A DNA stretch of 64,000 nt from an uncultured Lachnospiraceae bacterium. Its GTDB lineage: Bacteria; Bacillota; Clostridia; Lachnospirales; Lachnospiraceae. How positions within the stretch are numbered: position 1 is the stretch's first letter; each line of letters opens with the position of its first letter. Positions 44,634-64,000 of the stretch are shown piece by piece. A program made the position numbers and the translations under genes. The notes beneath the pieces were generated by a model. That model ran no database searches. It was not told the DNA's origin and worked only from the letters and a program-made list of their open reading frames with translations. The stretch spans positions 62,001-126,000 of the forward strand of contig CANQAR010000001.1 in the NCBI GenBank assembly GCA_947588845.1, written 5' to 3'.

Positions 44634-44660
44634 TTAGCACTCACTTGGTTTGAGTGCTAA
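44634..44660 (-). promoter_or_regulatory. CIRCE element (HrcA operator)
   Basis: Perfect TTAGCACTC-N9-GAGTGCTAA. Confidence 0.98.
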
Positions 44661-58520: not shown

Positions 58521-59321
58521 TTACAGCTTTGCGCTTCTGCGGTACTGGCGTTTTAATTCATCCAGGTACCCGTCCACATCCCCGGAAAGTATTTCTTCCA
58601 CTTTCTTCTGCGCGTCCGCCTTCCTGCAAAGTTCCGCATTGTACTCCTGAATTCTCTGGACAAGATAGGAATCGGCATCCACTTCCTTCAGCTTTTCTTC
58701 ATATTCCTGCCCGGACAGATACAGAGGCAGCGTGCTGACGTACTTGCGGAAGGTTTCTTTCGTTTTTCCCAGTTTCCAGGATTCAAGAAAACATTCCGCC
58801 GCTTTGTCATACTGAAACAGTCCCGCATACGCGGCGCCCAGATTGTTCCAGATGGAAGAATAAAACTGCACGCCAAGCCTGCCGGGGCCTTTCTTTTTGA
58901 GAATCCGCCGGTACACGCTCACAGCCCTCGCAAACATTTTTTCTTTTACCAGGTAATCTCCTCTCATTTTCTGCCTGACTTCTTCCGACTGAACTTCAAG
59001 ACGCGAAAGCTTTTCCTGAAATTCTCTTCCTTCCTGGACATTCAGATATCCTGCTTCCCGAAAAATCGGAAACACAAAGAAAGCCGCTCCTTCCTTTTTT
59101 TCCAGCTGTGCGTACAACTGCCGGTACAGCCTCGTCAGCCCCAGTTCATCGCGGATCCAGTCACACAAACCTTCGTTTATAATCGTCTCGTCTATCAGAT
59201 AAATATTGTGATACAGATAATAGCACAGTTCTTCAAGAGAATAGATCTCTGTGCGTATACTTTCGATAAAATAAGGCTTTTTTGCCTGTTCCGTCAGGCA
59301 CAGGTCATAGCTCATATTCAC
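58521..59321 (-). CDS. Uncharacterised protein with TPR-like C-terminal half
   Basis: 266 aa; FYSSIWNNLGAAYAGLFQYDKAAECFLESWKLGKTKETFRKYV is TPR-like; last gene of the run from the right edge. Confidence 0.7.
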   Translation of the reverse strand: MNMSYDLCLTEQAKKPYFIESIRTEIYSLEELCYYLYHNIYLIDETIINEGLCDWIRDELGLTRLYRQLYAQLEKKEGAAFFVFPIFREAGYLNVQEGREFQEKLSRLEVQSEEVRQKMRGDYLVKEKMFARAVSVYRRILKKKGPGRLGVQFYSSIWNNLGAAYAGLFQYDKAAECFLESWKLGKTKETFRKYVSTLPLYLSGQEYEEKLKEVDADSYLVQRIQEYNAELCRKADAQKKVEEILSGDVDGYLDELKRQYRRSAKL

Positions 59322-59359
59322 TACCCGCTTTCCTTTGAAAAATTTCCGAACAGTTTTCC

Positions 59360-60640
59360 TCAGAACAGAATATCCCTCTCCCAGCGCATGCCGGAAGGTT
59401 TAAACAAGCCTCCAAATCCCATATCTTCAAGTTCCACATGACAGCAGTTCACCGACGTAAAATATAAAGTCATCCTGAGCCGCAGCGTACGGTCCGGACG
59501 ATCCTTCAGACCAGTGAACCGCAGGATATGCGTCACCATATCCCCCGGCGTCATGGGCCGCGACAGAATCCGTATCTCGCGCTCTCCGGACGGAATGAAC
59601 TCACAGACGTGATGCGCCTCATACCAGTTCACCCCGGCTGTCACAAGAGGATAATAGGTCTCTTTTCCGCGGATCCTCATCTCCATGCCAAGATTGACGG
59701 CTACCATGTCGCCTCCGCTGAAAATGATCCCCCGGTCCGCAATGATCCCGGCCCGTTCCATCGCGGCATAGCACGCGCCGCGGGAATAAAGATTCTGTCC
59801 CTGATAGGCACGCCGCCTGTAGCATATATACTGTATGGACCGCACGGCCCAGCTCTTACTGTAAAAATCACTGATTATATAACTGACTGTAATGTTTCTG
59901 CGCTCAAACACCTTTTTGAGAAGCTCAAAAAGCAGCCGGTCCTTCTCCGCATCCCACTCCTTGTCATTCCTGTCCCCGCGGACTTCGCTGCCGACCGGCT
60001 GTCTGGCCACTTTATCCACCGTGGCGACTGCAGGACGGGTGGAACGGTTAATGTGAAGAACATAACCGACCATCGCCTCCTCCTCATATTCAAGAAGCGC
60101 TACATCCTGTTTCCAGAGCTCCTTTTTCTGATTTACCGTATAATAATAGAAAGAAGAAAGATAGTCCTGGACAAAAATATATTTCCGTTCAATGCCGAGT
60201 CCCTCCAGCGCCTCCGCAATCACGCGGCTCCATGGCTTCGTCAGCTTTCGGACCGTCACCATAATCTGAAATCTCGTCTGCTTCGTAACAAACTTCAAAA
60301 GCTCCATACAGCATGAGAAATAAATGCCGAGAATCTTTGCGGAAGACATTTTTTCACCGCAGACGAGCGTCTCTTCTCCGCGCTCAGCCAGTTCATAGAT
60401 TCCTGTGATCTGGCACTTATCCTTCTCATTCTTTTCGTCCGGGACCCCGTCCCAGAAATGCCAGTTTCCATCCTCATCCATCCGAAGAGCCATTGGGAGA
60501 AGAGGATCCTCCTCTCCCTGTGTCCTCCCGGCCGTCACCGGCTCCCTGAAGGACTGGTGATAGTAACTCACCTGCGAATGCTCACTTCTCAGATCAATTC
60601 CAAGAATCAGTTCATTTACCGCCTGTATCATAGTCCTCAC
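59360..60640 (-). CDS. Uncharacterised protein, possibly diverged actin/Hsp70-like ATPase fold (recalls the DUF5716 family)
   Basis: NELILGIDLRSEHSQVSYYHQ (phosphate-1-like), later YSRGACYAAMERAG (adenosine-motif-like). Family name from memory. Confidence 0.65.
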   Translation of the reverse strand: MRTMIQAVNELILGIDLRSEHSQVSYYHQSFREPVTAGRTQGEEDPLLPMALRMDEDGNWHFWDGVPDEKNEKDKCQITGIYELAERGEETLVCGEKMSSAKILGIYFSCCMELLKFVTKQTRFQIMVTVRKLTKPWSRVIAEALEGLGIERKYIFVQDYLSSFYYYTVNQKKELWKQDVALLEYEEEAMVGYVLHINRSTRPAVATVDKVARQPVGSEVRGDRNDKEWDAEKDRLLFELLKKVFERRNITVSYIISDFYSKSWAVRSIQYICYRRRAYQGQNLYSRGACYAAMERAGIIADRGIIFSGGDMVAVNLGMEMRIRGKETYYPLVTAGVNWYEAHHVCEFIPSGEREIRILSRPMTPGDMVTHILRFTGLKDRPDRTLRLRMTLYFTSVNCCHVELEDMGFGGLFKPSGMRWERDILF

Positions 60641-60641
60641 C

Positions 60642-63600
60642 CTATATCAGTGTAAACAGCTCTTTTGCCAGGTACTCCTGAATCACATATGTCTCCAGCC
60701 CTTCGCGCAGAGCTTTTTCATCCCCCTGACCTTTCGCCTGTATCAGATCATTTAAAATTCTATATTTCGTAAAAGCCTTTCCCCCGCGGCTGCCCGCCGA
60801 CAGAGATCTTGTGTCAGAACGCTTTACTGTCCCTTCCGATACCTCTTCCAGATAGCACTCCAGCTCCTCTCCGAAAAACAATGTGAATTCCCTGACGAAG
60901 ATTCCCTCAAAACAGTTTTCCATTCGTTCCTTTTTGTAATCTTCCTCTTTGTTTTTCCGAAAACAGAGTGTCACCGTGCTTTCGGGATCAGCGGCATATT
61001 CTATGTAGACCTTGCCGTCCATCTGATACGGAGCCAGAAGTTTTTCATTAAACTTTGTCCAGAAAGCAAACCGCATGTTTTTCGCATTGTATTCTTCCAG
61101 AAGCTTTTCCGCAAAAGACTCCTGGAGTTCGTCAAGAGAAGGACAGTTCGCGTAATACTGCAGCAACGCGAGCCTGCACACATCCTCCTGCTCATCCAGT
61201 CTGCCTCTCTCGAAAAGTTCCTCATAATCATGTTCGATATACCGGAATACGGAAGCCGCAACGGGCATTCCCTTCACAAAATACTCGTAGGCTTTCATAT
61301 TCACATAGGCCAGACACAGCTTTCTCCGTCCCATTTTCTTCCGGTATGACTCAAATACCGGCTCCGTTCCCTGTGTGTGGCTTCGTGTAAAAAGCAGCAT
61401 CGTTATGATCTTTTCTTCGATCAGCATCGTATCAAGCTCAAACTCCATCCCGGCCTGCCAGACCTGTTCCATATCCCGCACAGGTCCCTCATAATAAAGG
61501 AGCAGATAGCGCAGAAGCTTATCGTCATATTTGCCGCTGGAAAAGCAGTAGCGGCACAGCGCAAGCAGCATGCGGTTCTCCTCGAATTCACAGGCAAGCA
61601 CCATGCGGCTGCAGACACGTACGAGCTGAATCAGAGGAATTCCTTCCACTCCAAAACGGTCAAGCAGGTCAAACGCCAGCTCGCACAGCCCCTCCTCGGC
61701 AAGCAGCGTAATCAGCGCAGCCTTATCCACCTTCACATACTCCTGAACCGGAATCTTTCGCACAAATTCCGGCATGGTTTCATCCAGCGGATGCGCCGCG
61801 TAGTACGAAAGGACGCAGGCCCTGAGCCGATTTCTGTATTTTTCAGTAAAATACTCCTTCTCACATGCATTTGTCAGATACCAGAGATCATCCGGCCCCG
61901 GTTCGTCCTGGAGCAGCGCGCGGCTGCTGACATGCAGCATCGCACCCGGCAGTTCTGTCCTCTTTCGGATACACCAGTCAAGCAGCGTCTCATTTTCAAA
62001 AATCCGCCGGATGCTGCATAACAGAAACGCCGGATACCTGGTTCCTTCCTGATCCGCCACCATAACTGCAGAGTCCGGCTCATATACCTGGATTACCGCT
62101 TTTCCGTTTACAAACGGAACCACTTCCTCCTGAGTCATATAAGGGGAGCAGACCACCGCCTGTTTCATCCTGGGAGACTCACAGACGATTTCGTAGCTCT
62201 CCAGCATACGGAACAGTTTTTCCACGCAGGAGCGGCTTAGCGCCTCCGGTCTGAGCAATTCCTGATAAAGCACGGCGAGATCATCCGTCAGATGCCCCAT
62301 CTCAAGCTGCTCCAGCGCAAATTTCTGCATCGCGGCCCGATATGTCCGATAAGTCTGCGGATCCGGCCCTTTATTCGCGAGAACCCTGCGGTATACAACC
62401 GCCCGTTTCTCATAGCCAAGCGACGTATCATAAGAAAAATACATGCGGATAATCTGGGGCATATCATTCATATCCGTGAATTCCATCGACCCCATGTAAT
62501 ATTCATAAAGGCCCGTAATACGCAGTCCCCGCTCCACGCCCAGTTCATACCATCTGAAATACTCCGGCGCCTTTTTCCGGCCCTTCATAAGAAGCAGGCA
62601 GACTGCCCTTACCAGCTCATCTGACGGAAAACTCTCATAGGCAGCCGCGAGAACTTCATACAGAATCCGGCTATACGTTTCATGGTGCAGCGCAATTTCG
62701 GAAAGCTGAAGCACAACCTCTTCCGTGAGTACCTTTTCACGCGCGGCGAAACGAAGCAGATGAAGTTCAAAATCATCCGAGCGGCGCAGCATGAACGGGC
62801 TGCGCTTCAGGATCTGCCACGCCTCCAGATACATGATTCTGCTGCGGCATCCGCAGTCAAACTGACGGGATACAGCCTTGTATCTCGCCTCATCGTCCGA
62901 GAGAAATTCCTCCTGCAGATAAAGCAGAATCCACTGCAGCACCCAGCTCGTCCTGTTTTCCTCAAACAACTGCCTGATCTCATTTTCCATCTGATCCACA
63001 TAAGCGGCATCCTGACAGAAGAACGTTGTCAGATATAGATAAAATCCATACTGCTCTACAGTTTTAAGCCGTCCGGAATCCTCTTCTATCTCCTTCAGAA
63101 GACGGACCGCTTTCTGTTTTTTATTGTCCGCATAATACAGCTGAATGAGGAACAGATCCGCAAATACATCCGTTCCGCCCGACCTCTTGTAATTCCCTAT
63201 GAGCTTTACCGACCGCGCGATCCACGTCTCTGCTTTCAGTTTCTGCAGACGGAAGCTCACATAATAATTCTCCAGCTTGCACTGCATTCTTTTGCGGATC
63301 CGGCCTGCATGAATCTTCGAAGCATCCCCTGCCTTCTTCAGAGTAAAACGCACATAAATCGTCTGGTAAACCGTGTCAATCCGTATCTGCGCATAATTGC
63401 TGCCTTCATGCATCAGCGTGTGGTCAATCACATAACCCACATCACAGGTACTCCCCGCAAACTCATCCGTCGTAATCACGTTCTTCTCAAGCTTCACAAA
63501 CGGGGCGTCTGACTGAAGGGAAATTTTCGTGAATCCCCAGCCATGTCTGGTCATGCGGAAGGATTCCCGCACACTCTCCTTCACTCCGTAACGCGCAATC

Positions 63601-64000
63601 TGATCGGCATCCACGGAAATCTCGACCGGCTCCTTCACGCCGGCGCCGTTCAGAAATTCCTCGAAGCTCTGATAATTAAACGAAGAATTCCGAATCGCCT
63701 CATACATACCAAAAAGCCCCGGCCAGTCTTTTTCAAGCAGCTCTCCAAAACGCTCCGAGATAAAACAGCGGTACGCTTTCTGGAAATCCTGCTCCGCAAG
63801 CGCGGCGAGTTCCCTGATATCCGGAATTTTATCCGGATCCTCCTCCGGAAGTTCCTCTTCCACAACAATCGTGTACGGGAGTGTATGCTCACCCAGTTCT
63901 GAGCAGATTGTAAAAAAGCCTTCTTCCTTCATACCGCTGCTCATCCCGGTCGCATCCGCCTGATAGCGGATCTCATTCGCCGTCCCGGAAAATTCCGCGG
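60642..64000 (-). CDS. Very large uncharacterised helical-repeat protein (recalls the DUF5717 family), partial at right edge
   Basis: At least 1118 aa; frame stays open past the ORF-track start (63944) to the window end: AEFSGTANEIRYQADATG|MSSGMKEEGFF. N-terminal beta-rich repeat-like segments, then long helical region. Confidence 0.75.
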   Translation of the reverse strand, partial: AEFSGTANEIRYQADATGMSSGMKEEGFFTICSELGEHTLPYTIVVEEELPEEDPDKIPDIRELAALAEQDFQKAYRCFISERFGELLEKDWPGLFGMYEAIRNSSFNYQSFEEFLNGAGVKEPVEISVDADQIARYGVKESVRESFRMTRHGWGFTKISLQSDAPFVKLEKNVITTDEFAGSTCDVGYVIDHTLMHEGSNYAQIRIDTVYQTIYVRFTLKKAGDASKIHAGRIRKRMQCKLENYYVSFRLQKLKAETWIARSVKLIGNYKRSGGTDVFADLFLIQLYYADNKKQKAVRLLKEIEEDSGRLKTVEQYGFYLYLTTFFCQDAAYVDQMENEIRQLFEENRTSWVLQWILLYLQEEFLSDDEARYKAVSRQFDCGCRSRIMYLEAWQILKRSPFMLRRSDDFELHLLRFAAREKVLTEEVVLQLSEIALHHETYSRILYEVLAAAYESFPSDELVRAVCLLLMKGRKKAPEYFRWYELGVERGLRITGLYEYYMGSMEFTDMNDMPQIIRMYFSYDTSLGYEKRAVVYRRVLANKGPDPQTYRTYRAAMQKFALEQLEMGHLTDDLAVLYQELLRPEALSRSCVEKLFRMLESYEIVCESPRMKQAVVCSPYMTQEEVVPFVNGKAVIQVYEPDSAVMVADQEGTRYPAFLLCSIRRIFENETLLDWCIRKRTELPGAMLHVSSRALLQDEPGPDDLWYLTNACEKEYFTEKYRNRLRACVLSYYAAHPLDETMPEFVRKIPVQEYVKVDKAALITLLAEEGLCELAFDLLDRFGVEGIPLIQLVRVCSRMVLACEFEENRMLLALCRYCFSSGKYDDKLLRYLLLYYEGPVRDMEQVWQAGMEFELDTMLIEEKIITMLLFTRSHTQGTEPVFESYRKKMGRRKLCLAYVNMKAYEYFVKGMPVAASVFRYIEHDYEELFERGRLDEQEDVCRLALLQYYANCPSLDELQESFAEKLLEEYNAKNMRFAFWTKFNEKLLAPYQMDGKVYIEYAADPESTVTLCFRKNKEEDYKKERMENCFEGIFVREFTLFFGEELECYLEEVSEGTVKRSDTRSLSAGSRGGKAFTKYRILNDLIQAKGQGDEKALREGLETYVIQEYLAKELFTLI

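Follow-up and report, generated by a model that had tools for sequence, protein, structure and literature searches.

Our results suggest that three closely packed genes in a 64,000-nucleotide stretch of an uncultured Lachnospiraceae bacterium represent a dedicated Hsp70 machine reduced to a form without ATPases, acting as an ATP-independent client-binding scaffold around a pseudo-Hsp70, a reading to which we give a probability of roughly 0.55. The stretch (GenBank assembly GCA_947588845.1, contig CANQAR010000001.1; G000:C1:62001-126000) is hereafter called the window, and coordinates are window positions unless a locus label (L…) stands before them. All three genes lie on the minus strand, with the positions and the 1-nt spacing described in the original prediction. 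The first encodes DUF5717 (60642..64000), which is open at the window edge; the full-length protein has 1187 aa, its start is at the window-equivalent position 64205 and its full frame is L002:5643-9206. It is followed after 1 nt by the gene for DUF5716 (59360..60640; 426 aa), the degenerate, lid-less pseudo-Hsp70, and after a further 38 nt by that for a tetratricopeptide repeat (TPR)-like protein (58521..59321; 266 aa) with a conserved N-terminal domain and degenerate TPRs. Homology and structural models showed that DUF5716 is orthologous to Hsp70-B of a larger operon in other families of the order, and that the Lachnospiraceae lost Hsp70s A, C and D, a GrpE fusion protein and Hsp70 subdomain IIB, and kept the scaffold, the pseudo-Hsp70 and the TPR protein.

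Hsp70 ancestry of DUF5716 and substitution of its ATPase motifs

The family names DUF5716 and DUF5717 had been given correctly in the original prediction, as the Pfam scores were above the curated cut-offs both for DUF5716 (DUF5716_C, PF18980, E=2e-89, score 300.1 against a cut-off of 34.7) and for DUF5717 (DUF5717_N, PF18984, E=8e-220, score 732.4; DUF5717, PF18983, E=8e-88, score 295.0; cut-off 25). The AlphaFold2 model of DUF5716 (57 sequences) had a pLDDT of 89.8 and a pTM of 0.88, and a Foldseek search of the PDB with this model returned full-length Hsp70s. The best match was the lid-truncated DnaK 7kru (E 3.8e-18, TM-score 0.55), DnaK being one of the proteins that the original prediction had named as a supportive structural hit. 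The 50 best matches were Hsp70, Hsp110 or Ssz1 entries or assemblies containing an Hsp70; MreB, ParM and FtsA were not among these 50. Alignment to canonical Hsp70s with hhalign (probability 99, E 3.1e-18) covered 410 columns, from the start of the nucleotide-binding domain (NBD) through the β-subdomain of the substrate-binding domain (SBDβ). The DUF5716 sequence profile itself had no match in the PDB, and the Hsp70 link therefore needs intermediates or fold comparison. Together with the gene content and conservation described below, these results leave little doubt that DUF5716 is by descent a genuine Hsp70, although a degenerate one.

The model and the alignments divide DUF5716 into an NBD remnant of the actin/Hsp70 type (59729..60640, minus strand; residues 1–304) and an SBDβ-like C-terminal β-sandwich without an α lid (59363..59728, minus strand; residues 305–426), the latter defined by the AlphaFold2 secondary structure and the hhalign match to DnaK SBDβ. 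Motif mapping showed that the phosphate-1, phosphate-2, Lys70 and Glu171 positions of the remnant are substituted. The same applied to nearly all of 80 relatives for the canonical ATPase motifs (phosphate-1 GxDLGTTxS, Lys70, Glu171 and DLGGGT): the Lys70 position was hydrophobic in at least 74 of the 80, the Glu171 position was His or Tyr in 79, and Thr199 was retained in only seven. The GIDL segment quoted in the original prediction does lie at the phosphate-1 position; Gly10, however, is replaced by Arg and both Thr residues are replaced. The segment YSRGACYAAM, put forward there as the adenosine motif, aligned instead to the Hsp70 'NPDEAVALGAA' helix and not to GGSTRIP. Alignment counts and the hhalign gap placed a deletion at 59945..60004 (minus strand), where approximately 16 residues stand in place of the 84 of DnaK subdomain IIB (median 18 residues in the 80 DUF5716 proteins). 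The SBDα lid is also absent, with ~121 residues past the linker position compared with 265 in DnaK. Thus the proposed membership of the actin/Hsp70 ATPase superfamily held for the fold and not for the ATPase, as the catalytic residues and IIB are lost, and from these substitutions it is very likely that Hsp70-type ATPase function has gone.

The structural matches bear on two other explanations. The 'chaperone or cytoskeletal/scaffold machine' of the original prediction stood as far as the chaperone/scaffold class is concerned; the cytoskeletal part was rejected because the 50 best structural matches of DUF5716 were Hsp70-type. An actin-like element of the MreB/ParM/FtsA type with a giant scaffold would share the actin-superfamily core fold, and a coiled-coil partner with two transmembrane helices, present in many genomes (see below), would suit it, but the protein also carries an SBDβ-like sandwich and nucleotide-dependent polymerization is unlikely without P-loops and IIB, so that we regard this explanation as highly improbable. 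DUF5716 could, on the other hand, be a regulator of ordinary DnaK, namely an Hsp70-like partner that, without cycling itself, stimulates DnaK or recruits it in the manner of Ssz1 in the ribosome-associated complex (RAC) or of Hsp110, with DUF5717 and the TPR protein as an address label. The host has a normal DnaK and GrpE, and the Foldseek matches included Ssz1/RAC (6sr6, 5mb9 and 7x3k) and Sse1/Hsp110 (2qxl and 3d2e). These matches rank under DnaK, however, and reflect the shared fold. Hsp110 and Ssz1 retain IIB and ATP binding, and Ssz1 pairs with a J-protein, whereas DUF5716 is without IIB and the operon contains no J-domain protein. This explanation is therefore unlikely, although it is the strongest of the competing ones.

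A four-Hsp70 operon in other families of the order

Weak DUF5716_C matches in other families of the order came as adjacent pairs, and reading these loci revealed an ancestral-type operon (L036, L037, L038, L039, L041 and L042, from genomes G519, G532, G577, G500, G572 and G612). It comprises DUF5717 as the scaffold component (one or two genes), four Hsp70 paralogues, namely A (~560 aa), B (~520 aa), C (~545 aa) and D (~690 aa, with a C-terminal VWA domain), a helical protein of 565–645 aa whose C-terminus is formed by a GrpE domain (E 7e-11 to 4e-7; E 5e-12 for the form of 279 aa in L039) and a TPR protein of 388 aa. Hsp70-B scored 53.4 against PF00012 (cut-off 20.6). The Lys/Glu/Thr catalytic motifs were complete in all 18 A, C and D sequences, and B was degenerate in every family. 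A tree built from 44 Hsp70s recovered each of A, C and D as monophyletic across families; DUF5716 grouped with Hsp70-B (100/100), and the host DnaK, a second DnaK-like protein and HscC-like proteins fell elsewhere. Subdomain IIB is present in Hsp70-B and gone in DUF5716.

GrpE docks on and grips subdomain IIB in DnaK–GrpE structures. The GrpE fusion (E < 1e-20) was detected in 60 non-Lachnospiraceae genomes of a sample of the order (146 genomes), including 58 of the 59 that have DUF5717, and in none of the 15 Lachnospiraceae searched; by our own tally, no fewer than 41 of the 58 have scaffold and fusion on one contig. In family f127 the two usually lie at different places, yet co-occur, and in genomes of this family such as G593 (L135 and L136) the scaffold genes and the genes for the GrpE fusion, Hsp70-B and Hsp70-C are on different contigs, both kept. 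Outside the Lachnospiraceae, G511 (L134:5816-10915) has DUF5717 directly followed by a B-type Hsp70 with IIB present (75 residues), and no GrpE fusion was found in this genome; by its gene content, G511 is an independent reduction to the same DUF5717 plus B core.

The Hsp70s of the window's host were considered as relocated A, C or D subunits and rejected, since three of them grouped with DnaK or the HscC-like proteins and a fourth, of 948 aa, fell outside A/C/D. The N-terminal half of this last protein (L124:5431-8277, on the same contig outside the window) resembles Hsp70 (PF00012, E 9e-37); its C-terminal half is without assigned nature, and the protein forms a long branch of unsure place in the tree. 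Another unusual cluster of Hsp70 genes is found in genome G314 (L125:6019-10637), where two Hsp70-like proteins of 668 and 848 aa, with GIDFGTSxSV starts, are encoded in tandem near a gene for an 894-aa protein.

In the GTPase-centred GAP1-N2 systems (Kaur et al. 2020, PMC7159879), GrpE occurs together with an Hsp70 and a further Hsp70, and the ancestral operon contains the same ingredients (Hsp70s, GrpE, TPR, Ig/FN-like domains and VWA), so that a comparable defence or conflict system has to be considered. No GTPase or effector was present among the Pfam-scanned operon genes or in the gene lists, and a single copy in nearly all Lachnospiraceae is unlike patchy defence islands. PADLOC gave no match for the three window proteins, the ground on which a defence system was set aside, and only weak partial matches for related Hsp70s. 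We consider a defence role very doubtful.

Conservation of the three-gene unit in the Lachnospiraceae

In a sample of 200 genomes, whose family was identified as Lachnospiraceae through named loci, 195 had the DUF5716_C domain, and nearly every member of the family has one copy of the module. Three of the five negative genomes have DUF5717; in at least two of these the matches sit at contig ends, and part of the negatives is therefore explained by missing assembly. In the order sample, DUF5716_C occurred in 71 genomes and DUF5717 in 74, with both in 69 of the 76 having either (Fisher p 7e-33, indicative only, since the sampled genomes are related). An even sample of the phylum gave DUF5716_C in four of 300 genomes, all four Lachnospiraceae, and a class sample gave DUF5717 in 10 of 291, again all Lachnospiraceae. 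These counts in the phylum, order and class samples indicate that the module is an invention of part of the order.

The TPR gene came directly after DUF5716 in all 80 named Lachnospiraceae loci and a DUF5717 frame preceded DUF5716 in 78 of them, with median intergenic gaps of 15 and 18 nt. DUF5716 and the TPR protein are fused in G366 (L139:3315-5444; 709 aa), where the family hidden Markov models matched residues 4–420 (E 2e-97) and 435–708 (E 6e-54). Compared with two close relatives, dN/dS was 0.05–0.09 for DUF5716 and DUF5717 and ~0.04 for the TPR gene (overall 0.035–0.088), which by this codon-level estimate places the three genes under strong purifying selection. Since the order is the same in 80/80 loci and the genes are under purifying selection, conservation of the unit is far above chance.

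About half of the Lachnospiraceae have a fourth gene directly 3′ of the TPR gene, for a coiled-coil protein of ~395 aa with two transmembrane helices; it was matched in 27 of 60 Lachnospiraceae (26 of the 27 strongly), is absent from the genome of the window and was also found in the L039 and L042 operons. The protein (L048:11125-12309 and equivalents) has a conserved KIRYVNNTNLLDY motif after the transmembrane helices.

DUF5717 and the TPR-like protein

The AlphaFold2 model of the 1187-aa DUF5717 orthologue in L044 (pLDDT 86.5, pTM 0.56) was analysed using DSSP. It showed Ig-like domains at residues 22–116 and 193–290, an α-solenoid (295–668 and 739–1060) interrupted by a β domain, and a C-terminal β-sandwich (1065–1136) followed by terminal helices. 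The β-rich N-terminal segments and the long helical region read from the sequence in the original prediction thus correspond to two Ig-like domains and the α-solenoid; the segment quoted there is the second Ig-like β-sandwich (63336..63629, minus strand), the first domain beginning outside the window. Foldseek matched the Ig part to Ig domains of ciliary ASH and central-pair proteins (E down to 2.8e-7) and gave no whole-length match in the PDB (query-normalized TM-score ≤0.15). DUF5717 is therefore predicted by the model to be a two-Ig/α-solenoid scaffold. The third protein, likewise expected to be TPR-like, scored below the cut-offs of the Pfam TPR models (TPR_1 E=2e-5), and its family profile matched the genuine 388-aa TPR proteins of the related operons (E 2e-22 to 4e-28).

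Genomic neighbourhood

Upstream of DUF5717 lie, in order, nrdR, aroD, spoIIGA, sigE, sigG, a ylmC-like gene, aroE, ftsZ, ftsQ and murA, and downstream of the three genes purC, purF, purB and purA, all names being assigned by reading translations. No Hsp70 gene adjoins the operon beyond position 64000, a neighbour that the original prediction had thought worth looking for; the next gene is nrdR. Among the 68 loci that extend far enough to judge, 61 had the pur genes (purC/F/B/A) within 5 kb downstream on the same strand. The arrangement persisted over about 30% identity divergence and extended to the divergent member G496. The module could accordingly be an assembly or clustering factor for the neighbouring Pur enzymes. 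The related operons of other families, however, are not beside pur genes, so that the adjacency is confined to the Lachnospiraceae and perhaps reflects a frozen gene order; moreover, purine genes are near-universal and the module is not. We consider this role improbable.

A proposed ATP-independent scaffold

Loss of the ATPases, exchange factor and IIB, with scaffold, pseudo-Hsp70 and TPR protein retained under selection, fits an ATP-independent scaffold. These parts (ATPase subunits, exchange factor and IIB) disappeared together on the branch that led to the Lachnospiraceae. DUF5717 would then serve as a backbone holding both DUF5716 and the TPR protein, and the SBDβ-like sandwich of DUF5716 the putative client- or partner-binding part. 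Without running an ATP cycle itself, the complex may hold or assemble certain proteins and perhaps hand these clients to ordinary DnaK, and it would be tethered to the membrane in lineages with the coiled-coil transmembrane protein. Gene order, fusion and co-occurrence make one physical complex probable; a client-holding or assembly function is a more tentative suggestion. The wider picture, in which the order has an undescribed multi-Hsp70 holocomplex (four distinct Hsp70s and a built-in GrpE, with VWA and TPR components, on a giant Ig/solenoid scaffold) that the Lachnospiraceae turned into an ATP-independent chaperone scaffold through loss of all ATPases, the exchange factor and its docking subdomain, the pseudo-Hsp70 core being retained by almost all members, is to our judgement slightly short of an even chance.

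Several observations weigh against the proposed scaffold. Asp8 and one adenosine-loop glycine are still common among DUF5716 proteins, and weak nucleotide binding may still be conceivable in some members. A VLLLD-type linker was not recognizable in DUF5716. A CIRCE element (controlling inverted repeat of chaperone expression, the HrcA heat-shock site) was not found upstream of DUF5717, with at least six of 18 positions mismatched in all 78 loci, whereas dnaK in L126 and, as the internal control, groESL of the window both had no mismatch. As groES–groEL of the same window has a perfect element (44634-44660), the DUF5717 operon is no obvious heat-shock operon and, from its upstream sequence, is probably not controlled by HrcA.

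Almost all genomes of a family that is dominant in the gut carry the module, with essentially no literature on it until now: a literature search found DUF5717 in no paper and DUF5716 only in one unrelated paper, and further searches gave nothing relevant to the module except the GAP1-N2 paper. We found no description of it, and Pfam gives no function for these families. The tie to Hsp70 with traceable losses makes it testable what role a pseudo-Hsp70 has after the loss of its ATPase partners, and raises a second question, namely how a bacterium benefits from having four Hsp70s on a single scaffold. That GrpE and its docking subdomain in the NBD were lost in parallel is a natural experiment on the Hsp70 mechanism.

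Comparison with known systems

By Pfam, the window proteins are plain members of DUF5716_C, DUF5717_N and DUF5717, but the entries carry no Hsp70 link, TPR partner gene or ancestral operon, unlike the picture obtained here. DnaK (PF00012; 7kru and 7krv) matches DUF5716 over its whole length through NBD and SBDβ; DUF5716 differs in being without the SBDα lid and IIB, in its substituted catalytic residues and in having scaffold and TPR partners instead of an adjoining J-protein or GrpE gene. Ssz1 of the RAC and Hsp110/Sse1, among the structural matches of DUF5716, are likewise non-canonical Hsp70-like partners, but DUF5716 differs from them in the loss of IIB and in having no J-protein adjoining. 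The GAP1-N2 systems (PMC7159879) resemble the ancestral operon in that two Hsp70s share one neighbourhood with GrpE and with proteins of the TPR/Ig-like kind, whereas the operon described here has no GTPase or effector and instead contains four Hsp70s, the DUF5717 scaffold and a helical protein to which GrpE is fused.

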